Part shown: positions 2 through 40,750 of the stretch, one piece after another
Layout: each line of letters begins with the position of its first letter
Numbering within the stretch: the stretch's first letter is position 1
NCBI GenBank assembly: GCA_030611105.1
Contig: JAUWQL010000017.1
Coordinates: 1 to 40,750 of the forward strand
Direction of reading: 5' to 3'
DNA length: 40,750 nt
DNA from: Bacteroidales bacterium
GTDB lineage: Bacteria > Bacteroidota > Bacteroidia > Bacteroidales > UBA12077
Notes under the pieces: generated by a model
What the model saw: the letters and a program-made list of their open reading frames with translations, nothing else
Databases searched by the model: none
Told to the model about the DNA's origin: nothing
Position numbers and translations under genes: made by a program

Positions 2-400
2 CCGCACAGGGTTGTTCCTTCAACTATACGAATGTGGGATATTGTAGGCACCCAGAATGCAATGAACAGAAAATGGATAAAACCGAATATAAAAGACACA
101 AGCGATTTGTTACTAAGAATGTTGAAAAAAATTGATGTTGATTTAAAAGGATTACCTGAAGACAGATATTGTGAGATTAAATTTGAGGATTTAGAAAAAA
201 ATCCGACAAAGGAAATTAGATCAATTTACAATCATTTTAATGTTCAATTTTCAGAAGAATTTGACAAACAAATTAACGATTTTTTAATTTCTGTAAAAGG
301 ATACCAGAAAAACAAATACACAATGCCGGAAGGCGACAAGCTGGAAATCAATAACATTCTGAAATCATGGATGACAGAGAAAGATTATAGTTTGGATTAG
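2..400 (+). CDS. Sulfotransferase family protein, C-terminal part (5' end outside window)
   Basis: The frame is open from base 2, so the gene begins before the window; the first ATG at 32 is probably internal. The residues visible match the C-terminal part of PAPS-dependent sulfotransferases: a P-S-T-I-R-M-W stretch, then R-Y-C-E-I-K-F-E-D-L-E-K-N-P, the family's 'YEDL..dP' segment, followed by a short helix (EIRSIYNHF). The family transfers sulfate from PAPS to a hydroxyl or amine of a small molecule, lipid or glycan. The 5'-PSB loop that binds PAPS would lie upstream and cannot be checked. It is followed after 53 bases, which include a T-run, by a radical SAM gene on the same strand, so it may be part of the same biosynthetic locus. 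The substrate is unknown. Confidence 0.7.
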   Translation, partial: PHRVVPSTIRMWDIVGTQNAMNRKWIKPNIKDTSDLLLRMLKKIDVDLKGLPEDRYCEIKFEDLEKNPTKEIRSIYNHFNVQFSEEFDKQINDFLISVKGYQKNKYTMPEGDKLEINNILKSWMTEKDYSLD

Positions 401-453
401 TTTTTTTTTTTGATATTTTTATCCGTTCGAATAAGTAGAAAACAAGAAAAAAT

Positions 454-1728
454 ATGAAATTTCAATTAATATTTCCAAAGTGGAGAAAGCTTGAAGGGCA
501 AACAACTTTTAACCTGCCACCACATGGTGCAATGGTTTTTGCAGCAACAATACCCGATTATGTAGAAGTTGAATTTATCGATGAAAATCTGGAAGAAATG
601 CGTTTTGACAATGATGTTGATTTTGTTGGTATATCAATGTTGCTGACAACCCAGATAAAGAGAGGCTGGGCAATAGCTGATGAGTACAGAAAACGTGGGA
701 AAAAAGTAATGTTTGGTGGTATTTCAACTATGTTACATGCCGAAGAAACTATGGAACATGCTGATGCTGTTTTTCTTGGAGAGGCTGAAGGACACATGGA
801 GCAGGTTTTTAATGATTTTAGAAATGGTGAATTAAAAAAGGTGTATAATCACATGAACGATTTGCCTCCGATTGAGATTGTTGGCCCGGCGCGTCGCGAA
901 CTGTATAAAAGAGATTTATATTACCACAAAGGAGTACAAATGCTTGATTTGTTTCATGCTTCACGTGGATGTAAATTCAACTGCTATCCTTGTGCGGTTT
1001 CTTATCTGGGTGGAAGAAAATTTCGTCCAAGACCAATTGATAAATCGATTGAAGAATTAGAAACAATAGATAACAACAGACTTTTTATTGTTGATAATTC
1101 TCTGGCTCAGGATACTCAGTGGGAAAAGGATTTATTCAAAGCAATGATCCCGTTAAAGAAAAAATGGTGTAGCCATACTATTGAGGATAAACCCGAGGTT
1201 CTTGATTTAGCTGCACAGGCTGGTGCATGGTATGTATATCAGGCAGTATTTGATACTTCTGATTATATTAAAAGGAGAGTAAAACAATATCATGATTATG
1301 GTATTGGTGTTGAGGGAACAATTTTATTAGGCCTCGATAATCAGACCGAAGATGATATAAAGCGACTAATTGATTTCTTATTAGAGATTGATCTTGATTT
1401 AGCAGAATTTACTGTTTTAGCACCATTCCCACATACAAAAGCATGGACAGATTTACGTAAACAGAACAGGATATTTAATTATAACTGGGACGATTATAAT
1501 GCCGGTCAGGTTGTATATCATCCAAAACATATGAGTGCTGAAAGATTACAAGAGTTGTATCAGTATGCCTGGGATACTTTTTATAAAGACGAAACACAAG
1601 AAGAAAAAATGTTTAAACTTCTGAAAAAAGTAGTTTCTCGCGAGATTGAAGATGGTACATTCAGAAAACGCAGACAAGACTTATCAAAAACAAGTTTTGG
1701 ACGAAATGTTAAAAATAAAATTGCTTAA
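454..1728 (+). CDS. Radical SAM protein with B12-binding-like N-terminal domain
   Basis: A 424-aa protein. Residues about 1-130 look like the Rossmann-type B12-binding domain of class B radical SAM enzymes (hydrophobic strand VDFVGISML, then KKVMFGG and ADAVFLGEAEG), but no DxHxxG cobalamin-ligand motif is visible. The radical SAM core begins at S-R-G-C-K-F-N-C-Y-P-C with the CX3CX2C cluster at Cys173, Cys177 and Cys180, and continues with a TIM-barrel-like region (VEGTILLGLDNQTEDDI). Such enzymes bind a [4Fe-4S] cluster and cleave SAM to a radical for methylation, ring formation or C-C bond chemistry. The next gene starts 14 bases downstream, followed by an ACP, AcpS and an acyltransferase, so the substrate may be an ACP-bound acyl chain; that is inference from context only. 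Confidence 0.85.
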   Translation: MKFQLIFPKWRKLEGQTTFNLPPHGAMVFAATIPDYVEVEFIDENLEEMRFDNDVDFVGISMLLTTQIKRGWAIADEYRKRGKKVMFGGISTMLHAEETMEHADAVFLGEAEGHMEQVFNDFRNGELKKVYNHMNDLPPIEIVGPARRELYKRDLYYHKGVQMLDLFHASRGCKFNCYPCAVSYLGGRKFRPRPIDKSIEELETIDNNRLFIVDNSLAQDTQWEKDLFKAMIPLKKKWCSHTIEDKPEVLDLAAQAGAWYVYQAVFDTSDYIKRRVKQYHDYGIGVEGTILLGLDNQTEDDIKRLIDFLLEIDLDLAEFTVLAPFPHTKAWTDLRKQNRIFNYNWDDYNAGQVVYHPKHMSAERLQELYQYAWDTFYKDETQEEKMFKLLKKVVSREIEDGTFRKRRQDLSKTSFGRNVKNKIA

Positions 1729-1742
1729 TAGTTATTTATATA

Positions 1743-2120
1743 ATGGAAACAAACGTAAGTAATTACCAGGATCAAATTTATCATTTTAACGGATTATGGG
1801 ATGTTCCTTCAATTTGTGGATTGAAAATTATAAAGAAAAAAGATAATGCAATTATTATTGCAACTGATTTGTTTGATGAAAATCCGGGAACATCAATTAC
1901 AGAATGGAATACAAAACTTGCAAAAGAACTTTGTGATAAATATGAAATTGACTATAACCAGCTAATTTTTATTGAACATACTCCTGACAAGAAAACGAAG
2001 CTGTCATTTAATCAGGAATCGTTTTTTAAAGTAGATTTTGATATTGAAGATGATAAATTTGAAAATCCTCAATGGCAAGAATTAACAAAAGAAGAAGTTG
2101 ATAATTTAATAACAGAATAA
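1743..2120 (+). CDS. Conserved hypothetical protein, 125 aa, in acyl-carrier operon
   Basis: A soluble, acidic 125-aa protein without signal peptide or membrane segment. The middle reads like a compact alpha/beta unit: strand IIIATDLFDENPGTSI, a helix (TEWNTKLAKELCDKYEI) and a strand ending in IEHTPD. The 'NPGTSIT' and 'FIEHTPD' segments look like conserved motifs of a small family that I have seen as a domain of unknown function, but I cannot assign a name. It lies 14 bases after the radical SAM gene and 10 bases before the ACP gene, so the three are almost certainly co-transcribed. A helper, regulator or chaperone of the radical SAM/ACP chemistry is possible, but no function can be read from the sequence. 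Confidence 0.7.
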   Translation: METNVSNYQDQIYHFNGLWDVPSICGLKIIKKKDNAIIIATDLFDENPGTSITEWNTKLAKELCDKYEIDYNQLIFIEHTPDKKTKLSFNQESFFKVDFDIEDDKFENPQWQELTKEEVDNLITE

Positions 2121-2130
2121 ATATAAAATA

Positions 2131-2436
2131 ATGGCCCAAATTACTGATAAAACCAAAGATGAAGTAAAAGAAGTAGTGTTTGATTTTTTTGCTGAAGAAT
2201 GCGAAATGGAAATTGATGAAATATCCGAAGATTCAAATATTATTAGTGATTTAGATGGTGATTCGTTAATGTTTTTAGAGTTAATAGAAATATTTAAGAA
2301 GAAGTATAATTTAAATATCGAGTTAAAAACCATTGGTAAATATGCTGTAAAGAATCCTGTTCAGACTATTGGTGAATTAATTGATATGCAACTTCTTATT
2401 ATTGAGCATGAGAATAATATTCTTGAAATAGAGTAA
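2131..2436 (+). CDS. Acyl carrier protein
   Basis: A 101-aa acidic helical protein of carrier-protein size. The phosphopantetheine attachment motif is D-L-D-G-D-S-L, with Ser45 as the expected modified residue, followed by a helix (FLELIEIF) typical of ACP helix II. The holo form would carry acyl or polyketide intermediates as thioesters. The sequence is not that of the housekeeping AcpP (usual motif LGADSLD), and the C-terminus is slightly extended, which fits a pathway-specific carrier. It stands 10 bases after the 125-aa gene. An AcpS-type transferase gene follows after an 81-base gap filled by an intergenic repeat. An acyltransferase lies one gene further on. Together these could activate and load this carrier. 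Confidence 0.88.
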   Translation: MAQITDKTKDEVKEVVFDFFAEECEMEIDEISEDSNIISDLDGDSLMFLELIEIFKKKYNLNIELKTIGKYAVKNPVQTIGELIDMQLLIIEHENNILEIE

Positions 2437-2437
2437 T

Positions 2438-2517
2438 AGGATGCAGGATACTGTTTATTGGTTTATTGGTAAAATAGTAAGCTGAAATTTGAAACTTTAA
2501 ACTCAAAACTCAAAACT
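2438..2517 (+). repeat. Intergenic repeat island R1 (GGATGCAGGATAC / TTTATTGG / ACTCAAAACT motifs)
   Basis: The whole gap between the ACP and acpS genes is made of short motifs that recur elsewhere in the window: AGGATGCAGGATACTG at 2438-2453, a doubled GTTTATTG, CTGAAATTTGAAACT, and a doubled ACTCAAAACT ending directly at the acpS start codon. The same motifs appear at 5297-5340, 15520-15551, 16944-16990, 19147-19242, 29356-29394 and 30972-31002. No ORF or Shine-Dalgarno sequence is visible in it. Its origin is unknown. Confidence 0.7.
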
Positions 2518-2886
2518 ATGATCTTTGGTTGTGGTATCGATATTGAAGAAATTGATCGTTTCGATAAGCACTATTTTGAGAAGGGAAGATTATCGGATTT
2601 AGTTTATGATCTTTTTACATCAAAAGAAATTGAAAATTTCTCAGTTTTCGGAAAAGAAGCCTTTTTAAAAGGCTTTTGTTTTAAAGAGGCTTTTTATAAA
2701 GCACTAAACAATAATGATATAGATTTTAAGGATATTGAAATTATTTTTACAAACGAAGATGATTTTGAAATTCTAAAATCAAATAAAATCAATAATATTT
2801 TCAGACAACTAAAAATTACTGATATTGTAGCTAGTTCGCAAATAAATGAGCAATATGCAGTTTTTAAAGTTTTATTGATAAAATAA
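2518..2886 (+). CDS. acpS: Holo-ACP synthase (AcpS-type 4'-phosphopantetheinyl transferase)
   Basis: A 122-aa protein of normal AcpS length. It has the two family signatures: an N-terminal G-C-G-I-D-I-E-E-I-x-R-F with the metal ligand Asp8, and F-K-E-A-F-Y-K-A-L with Glu57 as the second metal ligand. AcpS moves the phosphopantetheine arm of CoA to the conserved serine of an ACP, here most likely Ser45 of the carrier encoded just upstream. A dedicated AcpS inside a carrier operon is typical of secondary-metabolite or specialised lipid pathways. The start codon abuts a repeat island. The stop codon lies within an 8-bp direct repeat that borders a mobile element immediately downstream, so insertion left the reading frame intact. 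Confidence 0.88.
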   Translation: MIFGCGIDIEEIDRFDKHYFEKGRLSDLVYDLFTSKEIENFSVFGKEAFLKGFCFKEAFYKALNNNDIDFKDIEIIFTNEDDFEILKSNKINNIFRQLKITDIVASSQINEQYAVFKVLLIK

Positions 2887-3046
2887 GGTTGTAGTTTAAT
2901 TTAGAGTTTAAAAATGAAGGGCTGAAGCCCTGTTTGCATAGTATATCCATAACCCCAGCTTTAAAGCTGGGGTTAGTTAGCAAGTTAAAGATAAGGACTT
3001 TAGTCCAGAAATATAAAACATAACAACGCTAAATTAAACTAGAGCC
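2887..3046. mobile_element. 160-bp MITE-like element with IS1595-type terminal repeats and 8-bp target duplication
   Basis: The left end GGTTGTAGTTTAATTTAG (2887-2904) and right end CTAAATTAAACTAGAGCC (3029-3046) are inverted repeats matching at 16 of 18 positions. TAAAATAA at 2879-2886 is repeated exactly at 3047-3054, an 8-bp target duplication as expected for the IS1595 family. Read inward, the right end begins GGCTCTAGTTTAA, identical over 13 bases to the left end of the IS at 39660. Inside are three palindromes: AGGGCT/AGCCCT (2918-2931), a perfect 26-bp palindrome (2950-2975) and GGACT/AGTCC (2995-3006). There is no coding capacity. It separates acpS from the acyltransferase gene; without it and one repeat copy the gap would be 6 bases. 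Confidence 0.85.
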
Positions 3047-3060
3047 TAAAATAATTATAA

Positions 3061-3957
3061 ATGATTAATAAAACAGCGTTTATTTTTCCAGCATTTATTA
3101 CTGAATTTACCCGAAACGAAATAGAATTTCTGGATAAAAACTCTACTGATTTTAATGATTATCTGCATAAAGCTTCTGTTGCTTTGAATATTGACTTACC
3201 TGAGTTTTCATATAATACTGATGTATATAAAACCGATGAATTAAATTCTCAGCTTTTAGCTTATTTATTAAGTTGTGCGTTTAGTGATATTCTACAAAAG
3301 AAGGGTATTATTCCTGATTTAATAGCAGGTTATAGTATGGGAATATATGCATCTTTATATGCTGCAAAATCTATTACTATTGAAGATGGTGCAAAACTAA
3401 TATTTAGTGCTTATAACTTAGTAAACAATTTAACCGGAACGAGGATTTATGGGATGGGTGCAATAATTGGATTATCTACAAAAGATGTGGGAAATTTGAT
3501 TCAAGATAGTGCTCCTGATTTAGAAATAATTAATATTAACAATGAACATTCGCTTGTTATTGCCGGGAAAAAAGATGATGTTCTTTTAGTACTTGCAAAG
3601 GCAAAAGAAGAGGGAGCCTTTTCTGCTGCAGAACTTACCGTAGATACTCCTTATCATTCCAAATATCTTTTAAAATATTCAGATCGATTTGAAAATTTGG
3701 TGAATTCCTTTTCAATAAAAGAAGCAGTTATTCCTGTTGTTTCTACTTACAACCAACGAATATTTACTCAAGTTTCTGATGTAAAAAAGGAACTCATTTT
3801 TAATTTAACCAGAAAAATTAACTGGTATAAAACAATGCAAAAACTGATTGAAAATAATGTAAATGAAATTTATGAATGTGGTGCAGGGAAAGATTTAAAG
3901 AAAATATCCAGATTCATTGAAGGTGATTATAAAATGAAATCAATTTATAAAATATAA
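3061..3957 (+). CDS. FabD-like ACP acyltransferase lacking the malonyl-binding arginine
   Basis: A 298-aa protein of normal FabD/acyltransferase length. The nucleophile motif is G-Y-S-M-G with Ser92, and the catalytic histidine is His199 in D-T-P-Y-H-S-K. The small ferredoxin-like subdomain is represented by the GMGAIIGLS region and the N-N-E-H-S-L-V-I-A-G segment. In malonyl-CoA:ACP transacylases an arginine in the L-V-R-x-R-G helix binds the malonyl carboxylate. Here the aligned helix reads L-I-F-S-A-Y-N-L, with Ala117 at that place. The enzyme is therefore a transacylase or acyl hydrolase for a non-carboxylated acyl group at least as plausibly as a malonyl transferase. It is the last gene of the operon and is followed directly by a strong hairpin. 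Confidence 0.85.
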   Translation: MINKTAFIFPAFITEFTRNEIEFLDKNSTDFNDYLHKASVALNIDLPEFSYNTDVYKTDELNSQLLAYLLSCAFSDILQKKGIIPDLIAGYSMGIYASLYAAKSITIEDGAKLIFSAYNLVNNLTGTRIYGMGAIIGLSTKDVGNLIQDSAPDLEIININNEHSLVIAGKKDDVLLVLAKAKEEGAFSAAELTVDTPYHSKYLLKYSDRFENLVNSFSIKEAVIPVVSTYNQRIFTQVSDVKKELIFNLTRKINWYKTMQKLIENNVNEIYECGAGKDLKKISRFIEGDYKMKSIYKI

Positions 3958-38662: not shown

Positions 38663-39667
38663 ATGAAAAAGATTTTTACTACTATTTTATTATTTATTTT
38701 AGCGTGTGGTGTTTGTTTAGCACAAACGAATTCTGAAGAATACAAAGATTCGAAAAGTTTAATTGAAATCGGTACCGAAACACATGATGATTTGGGATTA
38801 CCAATGGAGCCGTTTTATCATTTTACTTACACTCAATCGCTATTTTTACAAAATGAACTTAATGTTTCGGGTAAAAGAATCGAAAAGATATATTATCATT
38901 ATAACGGTAATTCTGCATGGGAACAGGATATTGTTGTTTACATGGGGCACACCGATTCTGTAAAATTTACAACGCGTAACAGTTGGATAGGCTTTAGCGA
39001 ACTTACTGAAGTTTTTAACGGGAAAATGACTGTTACCGATCAAGACGAATGGATTGAAATTATTTTAACAAAACCTTTTAATTACAATAATGTTAATAAT
39101 TTAGTTATTGCTTTTGATGAAAATACTGATGAATACTTCGATAAGGATGATGAGTTTTTTTGCAGTTCAACTACAGATACGCTAAGTCTTAGAATAACAG
39201 ATGATTTTGAGAATCCCGACCCTGAAAATCCTCCTGAATCTGACCTTGATGGCACACTGGCTTATCGCCCTAATATAAGGTTGCAGTTTGCCGATATTCC
39301 AACTACACCCAAAATAGCCCTTCCTGTTTCATCTTTCGAATTTAATTTAAGAGAAGCAATGACTAAAGATTCTGCTTACGTTGAAGTTTATAACACAGGA
39401 ACCGGCGATTTGGTTATTACAGAAATTACAAGTATAGGCGAACATTATTATAGCACGTATTCAGGAACAATACCCGAAAATGAAAAAGATACAGTTTTAA
39501 TTTATTATTATCCTCAAAGCGAAGGCACGCATAATGATACATTATCTTTTACAAGCAATACCACCTTAGAAGACCCTGTAATTGTTGTTACCGGCGAAGC
39601 TTATCCTTATGGGCTTGAAGTACCAACTGTTTCTATTAATGATACTTATTATTATTTTGGGCTCTAG
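38663..39667 (+). pseudogene. Exported protein with choice-of-anchor D-like domain, truncated by IS insertion
   Basis: The frame encodes 334 aa with a signal peptide (MKKIFTTILLFILACGVCLAQ), a beta-rich domain (about 30-215) and an ASPM/Hydin-like, choice-of-anchor D type domain (about 217-315; SSFEFNLREAMTKDSAYVEVYNTGTGDLVITEI, DTVLIYYYPQSEGTHNDTLSFTSN). The native coding sequence ends at base 39659, residue Phe332 plus one base; the last codons (Gly, Leu, stop TAG) lie in the left terminal repeat of the IS that begins at 39660. Proteins of this make-up normally end in a T9SS sorting domain, which is missing and should continue beyond the far end of the IS, outside the window. A truncated product would reach the periplasm but not be exported by T9SS. 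Confidence 0.8.
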
Positions 39668-39679
39668 TTTAAAATAACT
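39660..39679 (+). repeat. IS left terminal inverted repeat
   Basis: Twenty bases, 19 of them matching the other end; the first 13 are identical to the right end of the small element at 2887-3046. It supplies the stop codon of the interrupted gene (TAG at 39665-39667) and overlaps the last two bases of the transposase stop codon. Confidence 0.88.
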
Positions 39680-40697
39680 ATGCTAAATGCATTAAGTTAG
39701 CATACCTTTTTTCAATGCTTCTATAATCCTTTATTGCATTAGTATTAGCAACACTTAATTCAATAATACTTTCAATAAATTCAGATTCTGTAAATTTTTC
39801 TTTTACATGAAACCAATTCATATAATTCTGTAAATATTTTGATGCAACCCCAAGTAATTGCTTATCAATCCAATTTTTCATACGGCTATGCATTGAATTT
39901 ACATGTTGAATATGATATTTCTTTTGTTTTACATATTGCTTTAAGTCTGCTCTTAATACGTGATGTTCAATCGAATTATCTAATGCAAATCCTTTATAGC
40001 TAACATGACCGTCTGTGCACAAAACTGTTCTGTCTTCAACCTTATTTCCTATAGCCTGAGTTATATTATCTTTTGTAATTCTACCTAAACAAGCAACATT
40101 AATATCTATTGTGTTTTTTCGGTCGGCAGAAACAATTACAGCTACTTGTTTATCGCTGATACCTTTCTTTTTTACAGACTTACCTCTTTTTCTTGCTTTC
40201 CTTTCTATTTTTTTCGAACCCTTTTCTGAGTGCAAAAAGAAAGTCTCATCGCTTTCCGTAATACCGTTAAAGGACTCTTTCTCAATATCGGCAATAGACG
40301 CATTTATTTTGTGTCGCCAGTCGAAAGCCGTTTTTTTATTTATATGTAATTCTGTCTTTATTTTATCGAGACTCTGTCCCTGCTTCATTAATTTCAAATA
40401 TGGAATTAATAAATGCTTCTTATGGATATGAGCCAACCATGTTCCAGAGTATGCAGTAAAACACCTATTACAATTCGCACATTTATACTTTTGAATTTTT
40501 TTATCTTTACCATTCTTTTTATATCGTAAACTTCCGCAATGAGGACATGTACCTTGCTTATTGTCTAATTGTTTTACATGCCTTTCCAATAACCCGTAGC
40601 TTGACGTGTCTTTTAAATTTTGAAGTTTTGATAATAAATTATCCTGTTCATCTGGATTTAAACTCACAAAATATTTTTGAATAGATGATGATTTCAT
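39678..40697 (-). CDS. IS1595-family (ISXO2-like) transposase
   Basis: About 339 aa from the ATG at 40697, preferred over a GTG at 40730 that nearly touches the terminal repeat. Numbering here counts from that GTG. An N-terminal zinc ribbon has C-P-H-C (62, 65) and C-A-N-C (84, 87). A helix-turn-helix-like stretch follows (QSLDKIKTELHINKKTAFDWRHKI). The ISXO2-like catalytic domain shows Asp161 (I-T-E-S-D-E-T-F), Asp240 (L-C-T-D-G-H) and the third position around Asn278/His281 (H-V-N-S-M-H-S-R-M-K-N-W), a pattern typical of this family rather than a plain DDE. The frame is intact, so the element may be active. It carries no passenger gene. Confidence 0.9.
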   Translation of the reverse strand: MKSSSIQKYFVSLNPDEQDNLLSKLQNLKDTSSYGLLERHVKQLDNKQGTCPHCGSLRYKKNGKDKKIQKYKCANCNRCFTAYSGTWLAHIHKKHLLIPYLKLMKQGQSLDKIKTELHINKKTAFDWRHKINASIADIEKESFNGITESDETFFLHSEKGSKKIERKARKRGKSVKKKGISDKQVAVIVSADRKNTIDINVACLGRITKDNITQAIGNKVEDRTVLCTDGHVSYKGFALDNSIEHHVLRADLKQYVKQKKYHIQHVNSMHSRMKNWIDKQLLGVASKYLQNYMNWFHVKEKFTESEFIESIIELSVANTNAIKDYRSIEKRYANLMHLA

Positions 40698-40730
40698 TTC
40701 TTTTTTCTGTAAATATAATAAAATAAACAC

Positions 40731-40750
40731 AGTTATTCTAAACTAGAGCC
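40731..40750 (-). repeat. IS right terminal inverted repeat
   Basis: AGTTATTCTAAACTAGAGCC, the inverted partner of 39660-39679 with one mismatch. It ends exactly at the window edge. Confidence 0.88.

Follow-up and report, generated by a model that had tools for sequence, protein, structure and literature searches.

The window (the whole stretch of DNA that we analysed, 40,750 nucleotides, from an uncultured Bacteroidales bacterium) carries at 32-3957 a cluster of genes for a sulfotransferase, a B12-binding radical SAM protein, a carrier protein, a phosphopantetheinyl transferase and an acyltransferase. The cluster is interrupted by a 160-bp element that contains no transposase gene, begins right after the stop codon of the acpS-like gene and ends 14 nt before the ATG of the acyltransferase gene, the two genes being co-directional. 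The features of this region are:

2518-2886, plus strand: acpS-like phosphopantetheinyl transferase gene (PF01648), directly upstream of the element
2879-2886, unstranded: left 8-bp target duplication TAAAATAA, whose final three bases are the acpS stop codon
2887-3046, plus strand: the element, an IS1595-type MITE with a hairpin-triplet interior, recognised by its ends, its duplication and the empty site in genome G005
2887-2904, plus strand: left terminal inverted repeat GGTTGTAGTTTAATTTAG, matching the right end at 16 of 18 bases
2919-2930, plus strand: hairpin A, GGGCTGAAGCCC
2950-2975, plus strand: hairpin B, a perfect 26-bp palindrome with paired changes across copies
2995-3006, plus strand: hairpin C, GGACTTTAGTCC
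3029-3046, minus strand: right terminal inverted repeat, reading GGCTCTAGTTTAATTTAG on the minus strand
3047-3054, unstranded: right target duplication TAAAATAA, through which the 14 nt leading up to the following ATG are restored to their state in the G005 empty site
3061-3957, plus strand: acyltransferase gene (PF00698), directly downstream of the element

A first-pass annotation had described the element as bounded by inverted ends alike at 16 of 18 bases, flanked by an exact 8-bp duplication, and made up centrally of three palindromes. On each of these points it was right: the 18-base ends differ at two positions, the same 8 bp stand on both flanks, and the perfect palindrome of hairpin B lies between two smaller hairpins. 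When the element was folded as a single strand it gave a z of -6.71, with 0 of 200 shuffles folding as well. Hairpins A and C are approximate reverse complements of each other, so that much of the element is predicted to form one long hairpin, and the element aligns with its own reverse complement. An Rfam scan of the window found no family that reached its threshold.

Searching with the acyltransferase, we found an orthologous locus in all but two of the 19 other genus genomes (17 loci, L056-L072), the two exceptions, G010 and G015, giving distant matches only; none of the 17 had the element at the orthologous site. The locus in G005 (L057), whose acyltransferase has 88% protein identity to that of the window, is an empty site with a single TAAAATAA and 6 nt from the acpS stop to the ATG, exactly the tightly packed junction that the annotation had predicted would be left by removing the element with one flank. 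A gap of 3-12 nt separates the acpS stop from the point where the acyltransferase match begins in 13 of the 17 loci, and in L061, L066, L068 and L072 (4 of 17) the acpS frame is still open at the acyltransferase start, so that there the genes abut or overlap; the same stop-to-match distance in the window is 174 nt. Empty sites in relatives, which the annotation had proposed to look for, are present (17 of 17 genus loci, G005 included, have no element), and the insertion reading stands unrefuted. These results support the view that the element is a non-autonomous IS1595-type insertion into a tightly packed gene junction.

The likely local effect of the insertion would be loss of the tight acpS-acyltransferase spacing and introduction of a structured stretch into the shared mRNA. 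The bases next to the acyltransferase start codon would be kept, the right duplication preserving 14 nt before the ATG, and any coupling across the 6 nt would presumably be lost. The annotation went further in suggesting an RNA hairpin that alters acyltransferase expression, and this part is so far unsupported, although some RNA effect on that gene is possible. We find it rather doubtful that the insertion was recruited as an RNA structure acting in cis, whether to reduce acyltransferase expression, to uncouple it or to stabilise the mRNA upstream: the element does lie among co-directional genes directly after the acpS stop, its fold is strong, and effects of MITEs and REPs on mRNA are reported in PMC3733652, but the insertion here is confined to a single genome, so there is no conservation at the site, and a scan found no sense-strand terminator. 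The mismatches in the hairpins also speak against such a role, being G-U in 7 cases versus A-C in 14, and we rejected one-strand RNA selection on the hairpins given this lack of a G-U excess. The terminator scan found no consensus promoter either, its promoter models being ones that do not cover those of Bacteroidota.

A second mobile element lies at the far end of the window:

39660-40750, minus strand: IS1595-family insertion sequence, recognised by its ends, PF12762 and 8-bp duplications obtained by pairing flanks across contigs
39678-40730, minus strand: IS1595-family transposase gene (PF12762)

As the annotation had noted, the right end of the 160-bp element and the left end of this insertion sequence (IS) at 39660 have 13 outer bases in common (GGCTCTAGTTTAA), and GGCTCTAGTTTA represents the same outer 12 bases in the window IS and the MITE. 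Target duplications of the IS1595 family are 8 bp long, and we saw 8-bp duplications in three IS1595-family elements here: the window IS, with TTATTTTG for the window copy and AATAAGAA for another copy (flanks paired across contigs), and the loci L412 and L414, which have exact 8-bp repeats. The window is a whole contig (C126) that ends exactly at the IS end (40750); because a flank on contig C50 has the matching duplication TTATTTTG, C126 and C50 are probably neighbours across the window IS.

Since the MITE has IS1595-type ends and duplications, we infer that an IS1595-family transposase moved it in trans, and on sequence grounds the window IS is the best candidate for the enzyme. As the spreader of the family throughout the genus, however, the window IS was rejected, as its transposase had a match in only 1 of 20 genus genomes and none in the other 19; another relative, unsampled or lost, must therefore have spread the copies elsewhere. 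Among the IS1595-family loci of eight genomes searched there was no autonomous IS with full MITE ends. Seven such loci other than the window IS comprised two with GGGGTATCC-type ends, two with TAGAGGTCAG-type ends and three without clear ends, and the end types of the four with clear ends were unlike those of the MITE.

Further copies of the MITE occur in its own genome, and 12 near-full ones could be aligned end to end. To these we added 73 fetched matches and two copies from G161, which belongs to another family of the order, giving 87 copies or core matches for examination; the set does not include L011 and L013, which are partial copies from the own genome, or any covariance-model match that was weaker or unlisted. 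Recognisable ends were present in 27 of the 87, and among these 27 the flanks formed exact 8-bp direct repeats in 10 and repeats of at least 7/8 in 18, compared with 0 and 4, respectively, of 694 mismatched flank pairs. The duplications that the annotation had said should accompany other copies are therefore present, with the qualification that the orthologous insertions L002/L110 and L004/L102 are each counted twice, so that the 10 exact duplications represent 9 events. The G161 copies included one with an exact repeat (L319) and one with 7/8 (L337). None of 21 copies checked overlapped an ORF of at least 90 codons.

At least three subfamilies could be distinguished by eye, differing in the central part of hairpin B and in the stretch that separates the ends from hairpin A. 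Identity across 10 of the 12 own-genome copies was 0.898 in the hairpin arms, 0.791 in the ends and 0.645 in the rest, two copies with loop inserts being left out (0.877, 0.775 and 0.659 with all 12). In the 12-copy alignment, paired changes occurred at 5 of 20 base pairs and 97.1% of cells paired, versus 92.0% in shuffles. The better-kept arms fit hairpins that either still serve a function or undergo repair.

Several copies carry smaller hairpins within the larger ones. Two species share one MITE insertion, 8-bp duplication included (L110 in G012 and L002 in G000), and in one of them a TCCCGAT...ATTGGGA hairpin has taken the place of hairpin B's apex and 3' arm; inserts resembling it are also found in L010 and L162. 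A second small hairpin family (CCTGMCNGCCGNCAGGC-like) occurs in the loops of larger hairpins, including the apex of hairpin B in L006, L106, L111, L120, L126 and L169. Its pattern had 35 exact hits in the own genome (both strands counted) versus 0 for the reversed pattern, and 7 of 31 sites had an outer stem of 6 bp or more, versus 47 of 930 mismatched flanks.

The interior of the MITE proved to have a distribution of its own. A covariance model built from the 12 copies had matches in 13 of 20 genus genomes (E ≤ 0.01) and in 19 of 198 genomes of the order (E ≤ 1e-6), the own genome being included in both counts, and it matched on both strands. Of 80 cores that could be oriented, 69 were without IS1595-like ends on at least one side, some of these having decayed ends (L009, L091, L100). 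Hairpins A, B and C are about 19 nt apart, and 42 of the 69 end-less cores have a first spacer of 19 nt. Mean pairwise identity among the end-less cores was 0.97, 0.91 and 0.97 for the three hairpins and 0.33-0.37, near background, for spacers and flanks; the model search and the patterns favour kept hairpins, so that the hairpin identities are partly a selection effect and the spacing is less so. A pattern scan of named genomes placed the core, among the matches listed, in Bacteroidota, Planctomycetes and one Ignavibacteria record, most of these records being MAGs in which contamination is possible. Bacteroidota isolates with the core, again among the matches listed, included Maribellus luteus, Draconibacterium mangrovi and Sunxiuqinia dokdonensis.

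The annotation had held that the centre consists of palindromes rather than transposase DNA, and this is correct as far as it goes; the description was incomplete in that the triplet also occurs widely in the absence of these ends and has a link to Y1 genes (below). For the same reasons we consider it highly improbable that this is an ordinary IS1595 MITE whose interior arose by deletion and fold-back of the ends within the IS lineage, with no Y1 link. The halves of the element are indeed alike as inverted copies (it aligns with its own reverse complement and the model matches both strands) and the copies with terminal repeats can be aligned end to end, but the presence of the triplet in genomes and loci without these ends, including the named Bacteroidota and Planctomycetes records, and beside Y1 genes largely refutes this origin. 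Some cores lie between inverted repeats of a different, TGTCCGA type (L157, L158, L159, L215, L240 and L243, and in Planctomycetes L274, L279 and L300). The idea that cores generally lie inside some inverted repeat was rejected, as only 12 of 96 without IS1595-like ends and 10 of 17 with them reached p ≤ 0.01. A canonical GT[AG]G foot 5' of the stem was present at 2 of 702 hairpin feet (117 cores; 7.6 expected), and because this foot is absent we call the interior REP-like and not a canonical REP.

At L116 and L122 the 3' end of a Y1/HUH transposase gene is immediately adjoined by the triplet, and L135 shows this arrangement with a decayed hairpin C. We sampled the Y1 genes of the genus (30 loci-bearing of 40 hits) and of the class (29 loci, one per genome). 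In the genus, 10 of 11 close Y1 homologues had the motif GGRCTNNAGYCC within 600 nt, versus 0 of 19 distant ones, and at class level the motif was found at 18 of 29 close homologues. When any GC-rich hairpin within about 160 nt was counted, all 29 class-level close homologues had one, 21 of them on both sides, at a density of 3.0 per 320 nt versus 0.32 in 165 farther windows (41 of which hold one). The genus close homologues had hairpins at 11 of 11 (3.09 per 320 nt versus 0.15 farther off). Distant genus Y1 genes had hairpins of other sequence at 14 of 19 (2.42 versus 0.21), so the close clade is not set apart by the mere presence of hairpins. The hairpins near Y1 loci have a 2-nt loop, and a perfect-palindrome rule misses them (10 own-genome loci). 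One flanking hairpin of differing sequence, sought in five genomes, occurred at 11 places in G331, 5 in G298, 1 in G406 and 0 in both G393 and G000, its reversed sequence giving 0. A single close Y1 gene is present in the own genome, on contig C21 (PF01797 over the cut-off); the hairpin upstream of it is intact, and the one downstream has decayed. The motif Y---Q--HH was found in all 15 Y1 proteins inspected (11 close, 4 distant). From these sequence comparisons, the MITE seems to carry the REP-like triplet of a second transposition system of the Y1/HUH kind.

Two other accounts of the hairpins have to be weighed at this point. That the whole element was moved by a Y1 transposase as a REP-like unit, with the IS1595-like ends as passengers, would agree with the hairpins being its best-kept part (the arms exceeding both the ends and the rest in the 10-copy comparison); however, Y1 transposition is not expected to produce target duplications, and the duplications here abut the IS1595-type ends and are 8 bp long, as in the window IS and two other IS1595-family loci, which leaves this account already disfavoured and, in our judgement, extremely improbable. 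Templated correction of imperfect palindromes during replication is a mechanism by which perfect hairpins could be kept in place of selection or Y1 action. We regard this as an unlikely explanation: changes in both arms at 5 of 20 base pairs and the near-background identity of spacers and flanks in the end-less cores are what it would produce, yet it leaves the common 19-nt spacing and the association with Y1 genes unexplained, and it could operate in addition to another explanation.

Very probably, then, the element is an IS1595-type MITE that encloses a REP-like triplet belonging to a separate Y1/HUH system. An IS1595-family DDE transposase acting in trans would recognise the MITE ends, and insertion between acpS and the acyltransferase gene would have made the 8-bp target duplication. 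The interior, A-19 nt-B-19 nt-C, would be a REP-like triplet from a clade of Y1/HUH single-strand transposases with such flanking hairpins, and the composite most likely had a single origin, its IS1595-type ends then serving for its spread. The ends, the duplication, the empty site, the family of copies, the fixed hairpin geometry and the association of hairpins with Y1 genes are all observations; from them we infer movement in trans, one capture event and an action of the Y1 protein on the hairpins. A broader proposal, for and against which we hold the case to be evenly balanced, is that A-19-B-19-C is the native substrate of a broad Bacteroidota Y1/HUH clade (like subclass 1.2, below) and hitch-hikes in DDE-type MITEs whose ends belong to two or more unrelated types, one IS1595-like and another the TGTCCGA type of the Bacteroidota and Planctomycetes records, and hence would spread by two transposition chemistries.

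MITEs are usually explained as deleted insertion sequences whose filler is ignored, and here the filler would itself be the module of a second mobile system, one with a fixed geometry that recurs across phyla. The triplet is a specific substrate that could be tested with a little-understood clade of single-strand transposases, and the composite suggests a possible route by which REP-like hairpins travel inside DDE transposons.

MITEs with IS1595 ends are already known, and, as far as our literature searches show, an interior taken from the hairpin module of another system, with copies in two families, is new; no paper on this MITE or triplet was found in searches that mostly excluded subscription papers, which makes this weak evidence of absence. 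The element is like the IS1595 (ISXO2-like) MITEs in being short and gene-less with IS1595-like inverted ends and 8-bp target duplications, and unlike them in that its interior is a hairpin triplet found alone elsewhere instead of deleted transposase DNA. With the REP/BIME/REPIN sequences and their RAYT (TnpAREP) proteins, as presented in PMC3116915, PMC2817692 and PMC6006769, it has in common dispersed intergenic inverted palindromes that match those flanking a Y1/HUH gene, whereas the three hairpins at fixed spacing and the missing GT[AG]G foot set it apart from the REPs described there. The sequence GGGCTTTAGCCC does occur in the literature, inside a Haemophilus REP with a GTAG head. Y---Q--HH is the signature given for TnpAY1 subclass 1.2 in PMC6006769, and the Y1 proteins here resemble that subclass in having the motif and in coming from Bacteroidota; subclass 1.2 is described in that paper as generally without typical terminal secondary structures, whereas hairpins flank the Y1 genes here. 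A further parallel is the Porphyromonas gingivalis MITE with an embedded minisatellite (PMC4596501), also a Bacteroidota MITE enclosing a repeat of another kind: there the enclosed repeat is a minisatellite, whereas here it is a set of transposase-linked hairpins.
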